This document shows, one piece after another, positions 15,894-20,089 of a DNA stretch of 64,000 nucleotides. The first letter of the stretch is position 1; each line of letters opens with the position of its first letter. The notes beneath the pieces were generated by a model. It had not been told where the DNA came from and did no database searches. It saw nothing but the letters and a program-made list of their open reading frames with translations. Made by a program: the position numbers and the translations under genes. The stretch spans positions 62,001-126,000 of the forward strand of contig NZ_CBTY010000008.1 in NCBI RefSeq assembly GCF_000723185.1, in the 5' to 3' direction. Source of the stretch: Candidatus Nitrosotenuis uzonensis. GTDB lineage: Archaea > Thermoproteota > Nitrososphaeria > Nitrososphaerales > Nitrosopumilaceae.

Positions 15894-15978
15894 TCGTAAT
15901 TTTGGCAAACCTCCTTGAAAGCATTGGCACGGATCATTCCTACCATATTCTTAAATCCAAATCCTCAATTGCTATTGC

Positions 15979-16074
15979 ATGAGACGATCACGTGTCTACA
16001 AGGCTTACGCAGATGATCGACTTTCTTATACTGTGGAGTTAAAGTCGCATCATATGGATGAAAAAGTGAAGTAA
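15979..16074 (+). CDS. 31-aa peptide leading the tubulin-like operon
   Basis: ATG 15979 to TAA 16072-16074 encodes a basic 31-residue peptide (MRRSRVYKAYADD...HHMDEKVK). A tattcttaaat element lies about 25 nt upstream, and the stop is followed after one base by the ATG of the tubulin-like gene, so if transcribed it is the first cistron of that operon and could couple translation. No homolog recognised. Confidence 0.45.
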   Translation: MRRSRVYKAYADDRLSYTVELKSHHMDEKVK

Positions 16075-16075
16075 T

Positions 16076-17467
16076 ATGGCCCAGTCTACAGCACCATTGC
16101 CACCAGCCCCCGTACTGATGACCTGTTTTGGTCACTGTGGAATAGGCCTTGGAGCAGAATCCTATAGACGTCTCCTGCTGGATGTGGGGGCAGACCCGCT
16201 CAAGCCAGTATTGAAGGACACAAAAGACGAATCAAGAATCCTAAAAAGATATGGGAGTACCATACTGAGATTTCCCGGGGCATACACGGGAGGAGAAACA
16301 CCACTCATACCAAGAGCTCTACTCGTGGATCTTGACCCGAGAGCGGCCAATCTTATTTTACAGTCTTATCCTGATCTGTTTGCACTCCGAGACAAGCATG
16401 TGATTCATGGCGCCGGAGGAGCGGCAAGAAACTGGGCGGAGGGAAGATCACGATTCAAAAACGAGGTAACGCAGAAATGGGATTTTGCAAAACAGCTTAC
16501 CGCACTGTCCCCTGAACCAGTAAGGGGTTACACCGTGCCGTTTGCTATGGGTGGAGGCACAGGAAGCTCATTTGCATGCTCGTTTATCGAGTTTGTCAAA
16601 AGCAACACAAAGGAGCATGCAACTATTGCTACGCTTGGACTATTGCCAGAATTTGGCTGGGACCCTGTCATACTGGAGGCTGCGGCAATTAACATCGTCA
16701 TGAACCTTGAATATCAAATAAAGTATTCTGATTGCTCATTCCTGTTCTCGAACAAAAGACTGCGAGAGCTTGCGCACAAATACGAAAAACGTGTAGACAA
16801 GATCCCATCAATAATTGACGATCTTCCAAAGGAACACGAGGTAGGCTGGAAGGATTACAAGGGAATGAACCTTATTGCTGCAAATGCCATATCGATGTTT
16901 ATCTCTTCATTTGCAAGAGAAACCGAATGGGACATGTCAAACTACAGAACGTGGCTTGCAACAAAGAGGCCTAAATTTGCAATACCATGGGTCATACCGG
17001 TTCTTCCTGATGAAGATCAGTGGAACCTCAACCAGATAACTGGAAACAAGCACAATACCATGGACTCTATAATTGAAAACCTCAACAAAAAACAGGATGC
17101 CATACTGTTTGACATAGACGAGACAGACATTCGAAACTACGGTGGACCAAAAGACTCTTGCTGTGCGCTTGTGAAAGTAAAGGGCGACTTTGACATCAAA
17201 GAAAGAGAAATTCTCAAGCGAGTCATAAAGGAGAGATTCAACATCGAAGATTCTAGAATGATATTCGTTAAAATCCCGATAATGGACAAGGAACAGGCAA
17301 ATGTAACGATCCTTGTTAACACGAAAGCTATAGGCCCCAAGATACTAGAGATAGCAAGAGAAGCAGAGGAATCTTGGGATGGATACAAGGAAGAGTATGG
17401 CCGATGGGGCCTTACAACTGAAGACTTTAAGCAATCACTCATGGATGTAGTGCACCAGTTCAGCTAG
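16076..17467 (+). CDS. Divergent tubulin/FtsZ-superfamily GTPase
   Basis: A 463-aa protein. The signature glycine loop FAMGGGTGSSFACSF (about residue 163) matches the T4 motif GGGTGSG of tubulins and FtsZ. Upstream, RALLVDLDPRAANLI and GAARNWAEG match the tubulin T3 region (VDLEP... and GAGNNWAKG) better than bacterial FtsZ, and LFSNKRLRELA matches the FLFDNEAL region. The first loop is CFGHCGIGLG. The catalytic T7 loop (NxDxxE in FtsZ, NADLR in tubulin) is not clearly kept; the matching stretch is WDMSNYRTWL, so GTP hydrolysis is uncertain. Thaumarchaea are known to carry a divergent FtsZ besides Cdv proteins, and some carry artubulins; this product looks intermediate. It is followed by a coiled-coil gene 12 nt downstream. 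Confidence 0.8.
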   Translation: MAQSTAPLPPAPVLMTCFGHCGIGLGAESYRRLLLDVGADPLKPVLKDTKDESRILKRYGSTILRFPGAYTGGETPLIPRALLVDLDPRAANLILQSYPDLFALRDKHVIHGAGGAARNWAEGRSRFKNEVTQKWDFAKQLTALSPEPVRGYTVPFAMGGGTGSSFACSFIEFVKSNTKEHATIATLGLLPEFGWDPVILEAAAINIVMNLEYQIKYSDCSFLFSNKRLRELAHKYEKRVDKIPSIIDDLPKEHEVGWKDYKGMNLIAANAISMFISSFARETEWDMSNYRTWLATKRPKFAIPWVIPVLPDEDQWNLNQITGNKHNTMDSIIENLNKKQDAILFDIDETDIRNYGGPKDSCCALVKVKGDFDIKEREILKRVIKERFNIEDSRMIFVKIPIMDKEQANVTILVNTKAIGPKILEIAREAEESWDGYKEEYGRWGLTTEDFKQSLMDVVHQFS

Positions 17468-17479
17468 TCGGTGAGAATC

Positions 17480-18025
17480 ATGGCCGATTTTAATTATCTT
17501 GAAGAAATAGCACGACAAATCAAGACAAACAGAAACTATCTTAATCAGATCGAGGAAGAGCTCAAGATAATCAACATGAAGCTACATGAGCTTCCGTTGA
17601 AAAAACCAACAGAAGCGACATTTGCAAAGATGATTGGCACACAATACGAGGACCAGCAGGAGCAGCTTGAAAAATCAAAGGCAAACCTTGAAGCAAAAAA
17701 AGAAGAGCTTACAAACGCGGTAAAATCGGACACTTCTAAATTCATCTCGGAGATGACCTCGCCAGATCTTGTAATCCCGCTTGACCCAAAACCCCAGTTC
17801 AAAAACGGCAATGTGATGTTCCAATACAAAGACGCAACAAAATTCCATAATCTGTTTGAGTTCCTAAGTGAACTACTAGGCCTTAGTGCGCCATTGGTTG
17901 TAAAAGACGTGCTGCTGTCCTCAACTGAAGTGATAATTAAAGTCTCAAACGAGTATGATGCAAAACAAAAGTTCATCTCGTCTATGAACGAGATACAAAA
18001 GACGCTTACTATCAAGAAGAAATAA
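17480..18025 (+). CDS. Coiled-coil protein, likely partner of the tubulin-like GTPase
   Basis: A 181-aa protein starting at ATG 17480 (a GTG three codons earlier is also in frame). Residues about 1-90 are a long coiled coil (NYLNQIEEELKIINMKLHEL onward), and residues about 95-180 form a globular alpha/beta part ending in Lys-rich sequence. No signal or membrane segment. The gene follows the tubulin-like gene with 12 nt spacing in the same direction, so it is probably co-expressed and could be an assembly partner; this is context inference only. Confidence 0.65.
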   Translation: MADFNYLEEIARQIKTNRNYLNQIEEELKIINMKLHELPLKKPTEATFAKMIGTQYEDQQEQLEKSKANLEAKKEELTNAVKSDTSKFISEMTSPDLVIPLDPKPQFKNGNVMFQYKDATKFHNLFEFLSELLGLSAPLVVKDVLLSSTEVIIKVSNEYDAKQKFISSMNEIQKTLTIKKK

Positions 18026-19171: not shown

Positions 19172-20089
19172 TTGCAAAACAAGACTCTGGTAGCGGCAAT
19201 ACTGATAATAATCGGACCGGCCATGTTTGCACTAGTCGCATATCCTGATACGTTCAGTCTAAGCTGGAATCAGGGAAGAGGAGGTTTTCTGTTTGCAATG
19301 GCGTTCATAGTCGCAGAGCTTATCGGTCTGAGACTTCAGATATCGAAGACAAAACTGCTTGCGCTCATTCCGTTGGCTGCGTTAGTAATTGCATATCTTG
19401 TGAGCCTTGATTTTGGCCTTCGTGATTACATTACTGACTCTGCCAAACACTACAACGTCAATCTGATATACTCTTGGACATGGATGTGGGATTTTATTGT
19501 CATGGGAATATTCGTTGTCGCGTCTGTAAGCATTTTGTTTGGGAAAAGATGGGTAAGAATAGCTCCAGCAGGTCCTATATTTCTGTGTGGCAGCGCAATA
19601 ATACTTTCACTTGATGCATTCTTCCCTTATGACACGCTGGGTCCGCTGCAGTATGTAGTGCCGTATCTGGTAAAGGCAAACGTCTCAATAATTGAGTTCT
19701 TTGATCTTGGAACTGCCATAGCACGAGACAACCTCATGTTCCTCCGGGGAGAGCATGGCTCGATGGCACTACAGGTATTCTGGCCGTCGGCAGGTGTGCA
19801 TAGCGTGATAATTTACTCGCTTGTAATGATGGCGTTTCTACTTAAGATGAATATACCGAGAAAGCGCAAGCTCATCTATTTTGGAATAGGAATACTTGGA
19901 ACAATAGGAGTGAACATGATACGAATATTCTCGCTTTCAATATTTGTGCTCAAAGTATCTGCAAATCCAGTCAAGTTTGAAGAATTTCACGGTATAGCAG
20001 GCGAGATAATGTTCCTGCCGTGGTTGTTTGCGTATCTGTTTCTTGTGACTGCGGTAGAAACAAAGCGCCTCAAAAAGCAGACAGCCTAG
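19172..20089 (+). CDS. Thaumarchaeal-type archaeosortase with Ser in place of catalytic Cys
   Basis: A 305-aa polytopic membrane protein (about eight hydrophobic segments) from TTG at 19172. The three conserved positions of the exosortase/archaeosortase family are visible: VFWPSAGVHS, where S206 stands at the position of the usual catalytic Cys (CSGxxS), GVNMIRIFSL with R251, and EFHGIAGE with H273. These enzymes cleave or transfer C-terminally anchored surface proteins (PEF/PEFG-CTERM type). I recall that the thaumarchaeal subfamily has Ser here, but could not verify it. No clear PEFG-tailed substrate is encoded in this window. The 3' end overlaps the polymerase gene by 4 nt. Confidence 0.8.
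   Translation: MQNKTLVAAILIIIGPAMFALVAYPDTFSLSWNQGRGGFLFAMAFIVAELIGLRLQISKTKLLALIPLAALVIAYLVSLDFGLRDYITDSAKHYNVNLIYSWTWMWDFIVMGIFVVASVSILFGKRWVRIAPAGPIFLCGSAIILSLDAFFPYDTLGPLQYVVPYLVKANVSIIEFFDLGTAIARDNLMFLRGEHGSMALQVFWPSAGVHSVIIYSLVMMAFLLKMNIPRKRKLIYFGIGILGTIGVNMIRIFSLSIFVLKVSANPVKFEEFHGIAGEIMFLPWLFAYLFLVTAVETKRLKKQTA

Follow-up and report, generated by a model that had tools for sequence, protein, structure and literature searches.

The artubulin of Candidatus Nitrosotenuis uzonensis: a conserved coiled-coil partner gene and a T7 loop without the catalytic acid

The window analysed here (the whole stretch of 64,000 nucleotides from Candidatus Nitrosotenuis uzonensis) carries a member of a known protein family, artubulin, together with a conserved partner, a description of which we did not find, and with a change in the catalytic loop that runs through the family. 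Our best reading, to which we assign a probability of about 50%, is that artubulin forms a GTP-binding tubulin filament in which hydrolysis is slow or controlled by the partner. It has been discussed whether artubulins might be related to the ancestor from which eukaryotic tubulin arose. We found no report in the literature of their biochemistry (assembly, GTPase activity or interaction), and an obligate partner offers a concrete handle on whether artubulin forms filaments and whether it splits GTP.

Identity and phylogenetic placement

An earlier note on this DNA had reported a 463-residue frame with VDLDP, NWAEG and GGGTGSS segments and had mentioned that artubulins are described in some thaumarchaea. 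The frame is present at positions 16076–17467 of the forward strand, on which the other features of this locus given below also lie, and its product is itself an artubulin, because it is 78–79% identical over its full length to Nitrosarchaeum records, matching the ~79% published for N. uzonensis. This same thaumarchaeal tubulin family was described from Nitrosarchaeum in 2012 (PMC3349469) and from Ca. Nitrosotenuis uzonensis in 2013 (PMC3835317). Relatives that are 92–95% identical to the window protein include records named Candidatus Nitrosotenuis. The Pfam Tubulin family matched the protein with E=2e-13, and the closest solved structures are those of the Asgard tubulins AtubB and AtubA (PMC13394414), followed by gamma-tubulin. 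Profile alignment with alpha-, beta- and gamma-tubulin extended into the C-terminal domain (388 columns, E=4e-16) and revealed an artubulin-specific insertion before helix H7. Loops T1 (GHCG), T2 (VDLDP, residues 84–88, 16325–16339), T3 (GGAARNWAEG, residues 114–123, 16415–16444) and the glycine-rich GTP-binding loop T4 (GGGTGSS, residues 159–165, 16550–16570) all align with tubulin, and the start of H7 (KDYKGMN, 16850–16870) keeps the tubulin Y224/N228 pair. Purifying selection on the gene is strong, with pN/pS <0.08 in same-genus stretches of artubulin.

The phylogeny agrees with the earlier placement of the protein outside FtsZ. In a tree limited to 12 artubulins, 21 FtsZ sequences (two of them thaumarchaeal) and human alpha-, beta- and gamma-tubulin, with the human tubulin and E. 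coli FtsZ sequences as outgroups, artubulins grouped with tubulins and were split from FtsZ by a 100/100 branch, which rules out membership of the FtsZ clade. In published trees, artubulin lies near tubulin on a long branch and its placement is uncertain (PMC9871819, PMC13394414). The genome (1.64 Mb, 14 contigs) has one other tubulin-family gene, FtsZ, which shares the superfamily with artubulin but falls on the far side of the 100/100 branch and gave no significant profile match to artubulin. In this FtsZ (L028:1318-2262), the T4 loop reads NLAGKAG instead of GGGTG, and therefore it also looks degenerate.

The T7 loop and GTP hydrolysis

The T7/H8 region of artubulin, RETEWDMSNYRTW (16916–16954), departs from the NxDxx(E/D) motif of hydrolysing tubulin and FtsZ. 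The catalytic position (alpha-tubulin E254, FtsZ D212) corresponds to N289 by MAFFT, to Y290 by hhalign and to R291 by an ungapped count from N228, and it is non-acidic in all three alignments across 79 loci with identity down to ~52%. Thus, the missing catalytic pattern that the earlier note had seen in one protein extends to the family. The region reads RETEWDMSNYRTWL in 77 of the 79 covering loci, RDTEWDMSSYRTWL in one and RETEWDMSNFRTWL in one, which places N, Y or R at the catalytic position, depending on the alignment, with S or F there in single loci; this conservation is partly selected for in the scan of named genome contigs, because RETEWDM was one of its two seeds, whereas the whole-genome artubulin searches were not pattern-seeded. 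The structure model of artubulin, built from 12 close sequences, reached a pLDDT of only 41, so that the geometry of T7 is taken from the sequence alignment.

A lysine at the same position blocks hydrolysis of the neighbour's GTP in alpha/beta-tubulin and AtubAB (PMC13394414), which makes a loss of GTP hydrolysis in artubulin plausible. AtubA and beta-tubulin, like artubulin, have a non-catalytic residue there. However, AtubA/AtubB and alpha/beta-tubulin are each paired with a second, catalytic tubulin, whereas artubulin genomes normally have a single tubulin, and the acid would therefore be absent at every interface. In our best reading, artubulin would bind GTP and stack head to tail into protofilaments, by analogy with the characterised polymerising tubulins. 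Because its T7 loop would present N, Y or R to the GTP of the neighbour, hydrolysis may be slow or absent, and the filaments would be GTP-stable unless the partner acts.

Evidence against this reading comes from two acidic residues close to T7. The segment T-E284-W-D286 is invariant in 79 of 79 loci, and E284 and D286 might act in catalysis and could compensate for the missing acid. Artubulin would then be an ordinary hydrolysing tubulin in which one of these displaced acids is catalytic, with the partner as a filament-binding accessory protein. MAFFT sets D286 on the T7 aspartate and E284 on the T7 asparagine, giving ExDxxN for NxDxx(D/E), but neither acid falls on the catalytic position in any of the three alignments; we consider this alternative somewhat unlikely.

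The lack of the T7 acid would also suit a protein that does not polymerise and acts as a GTP-bound scaffold or switch in complex with its partner. The insertion ahead of H7 is consistent with such a role, as are the degenerate T4 loop of the same-genome FtsZ and the reported finding that N. maritimus FtsZ does not polymerise (PMC3684127). Nevertheless, the whole tubulin fold aligns, C-terminal domain included, and the gene is highly conserved, and a scaffold or switch is an unlikely explanation in our judgement.

The coiled-coil partner

The adjacency of the partner gene is the strongest new result. The earlier note had described a coiled-coil frame 12 nt after the tubulin stop and proposed that the protein has its own partner; the spacing was confirmed, and the operon partner proved to be conserved in other genomes. 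Relatives share the start codon ATG at 17480, which gives this same spacing and a protein of 181 aa (17480–18025); a GTG at 17471, which would give 184 aa, is not conserved. Measured from the conserved start, the partner lies 2–16 nt downstream of artubulin in 21/21 relatives with sequence there, and it is directly downstream in all 76 named loci that continue. Among 400 class-level genomes, artubulin was found in 87 and the partner in every one of these, a count for which three weak artubulin-profile matches (~900 aa frames) were set aside and one short contig-end match was kept; the genome-level Fisher test of this co-occurrence ignores shared ancestry. In genus g12, both genes are absent from most listed genomes, and the four artubulin carriers all have the partner. 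These results suggest that this uncharacterised coiled-coil protein is probably the working partner of artubulin, and in our best reading artubulin and this obligate partner make up a two-gene operon. Neither the partner, nor the loss at T7, nor the upstream element discussed below is described in the available sections of the artubulin papers (PMC3349469, PMC3835317), and a 2023 study found coiled-coil neighbours to be frequent beside archaeal tubulin-like genes in general (PMC9871819).

The AlphaFold2 model of the partner (48 sequences; pLDDT 91.9, pTM 0.80) confidently predicts an antiparallel coiled-coil hairpin (helices 4–51 and 60–92) followed by a small alpha/beta domain. The protein had no match above the cut-off in Pfam and NCBIfam, nothing significant among PDB sequences except designed antiparallel coiled coils, and no match at E<0.001, hence no solved-structure counterpart, in Foldseek. 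BtubA/BtubB of Prosthecobacter are likewise prokaryotic tubulins with an operon neighbour (PMC3349469), but that neighbour is a TPR protein. In our best reading, the partner would bind the filament, anchoring or cross-linking it through the hairpin and also controlling its assembly. A stronger version, in which a tubulin filament has no catalytic acid at any interface and hydrolysis or disassembly is supplied in trans by the dedicated coiled-coil protein, has in our estimate only a small chance of being correct. If true, this tubulin cytoskeleton would have two components and would differ from those of alpha/beta-tubulin, FtsZ and TubZ.

In 36 genomes, the partner family is present although artubulin is missing; it therefore has, or had, another role, which counts against our best reading. 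In one family of these genomes it lies next to a radical SAM gene, another family has a shorter form of ~130–150 aa, and some copies appear to be remnants. At two loci of family f2 (L052 and L053), the homologue sits next to a radical SAM gene and a small protein without family assignment. At a locus of the artubulin-free genome G048 (L051), several stop codons break the homologue, an apparent loss of the system. Two different artubulin–partner pairs lie on separate contigs of genome G038 (L021 and L026; ~1% contamination), and G377 also has two; such pairs may be genuine paralogues, in which case a mixed filament is conceivable, or they may reflect a mixture of strains. Open frames of ~900 aa in genomes G056 and G042 (L024 and L025) have a short match to the GTP-binding region of artubulin, possibly a tubulin-like domain within a large protein.

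The upstream region and other neighbours

The earlier note had also placed a 31-residue leader gene 1 nt upstream of artubulin. The open frame exists (15979–16074), but its status as a gene is unsupported, since the conserved DNA at this site shows the evolutionary pattern of noncoding sequence. The Nitrosotenuis sequences gave a pN/pS of 0.91 in this frame and each of the two other groups gave 1.04, no better than the other two frames, whereas the same test on artubulin as a control gave <0.08; thus, no purifying selection was seen in the frame in these three groups. Column permutation likewise put no reading frame of the region convincingly ahead, and the start codon is not conserved. A translated leader controlling the operon could explain why 45 of the 49 distinct loci have no stop codon in the frame across the conserved block and why most indels preserve the frame. 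Yet the other four loci have stops, Nitrosarchaeum-type and distant loci showed no counterpart of the frame or of the conserved element, and together with the substitution pattern this makes such a leader highly improbable.

What is conserved across loci is an element of ~55 bp, TGTCTAYAANNATCAAG ... GTTAAAG (15992–16045), confined to artubulin loci in artubulin-bearing genomes, bar single one-mismatch matches elsewhere. It is probably a promoter or operator. Its terminal TTAAAG lies ~38 nt before the artubulin start codon in the window, a distance at which it would fit a TATA-like box. A further possible TATA-like box, TTCTTAAATCC (15948–15958), is conserved within the genus. Membership of a known RNA family and a shared RNA fold were considered for the element and rejected, as there was no Rfam match and no consensus RNA fold. 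Nitrosarchaeum-type loci (L102–L108) have a different conserved stretch, GGTATAATTTCTTCTACTCTCTTATTAATGAG, upstream of artubulin, which suggests a replaced promoter.

The 2012 proposal that artubulin is a division factor acting with ESCRT-III/CdvB draws on gene neighbourhood. Seven Nitrosarchaeum-type loci do have a CdvB homologue immediately before artubulin, but none was matched in the searched flanks of any other artubulin locus, the window locus included, and the CdvB match of this genome is on a different contig. This accords with the published accounts of Snf7/CdvB adjacency in Nitrosarchaeum and its absence in N. uzonensis (PMC3349469, PMC3835317). Because this adjacency is lineage-specific, we did not count it as defining artubulin; the coiled-coil partner is not so restricted, and the case for a division role built on ESCRT-III becomes less compelling. 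Artubulin is, moreover, absent from most genomes of the class, and we regard the division proposal as improbable.

The window locus is flanked by NreA and an MgtE-CBS transporter. The remaining neighbours of artubulin are lineage-specific; Nitrosotalea, for instance, has a Na/H exchanger there as well as a TPR gene. The TPR protein, encoded upstream of artubulin (L086:6722-7537), recalls the TPR neighbour of bacterial BtubAB. A mobile or viral origin of the locus was rejected, since there was no plasmid match and the matches to phages and viral contigs were weak and partial. Elsewhere in the window, positions 19172–20089 encode an exosortase-like membrane protein in this thaumarchaeon, matching PF09721 at E=1e-4, below the cut-off.
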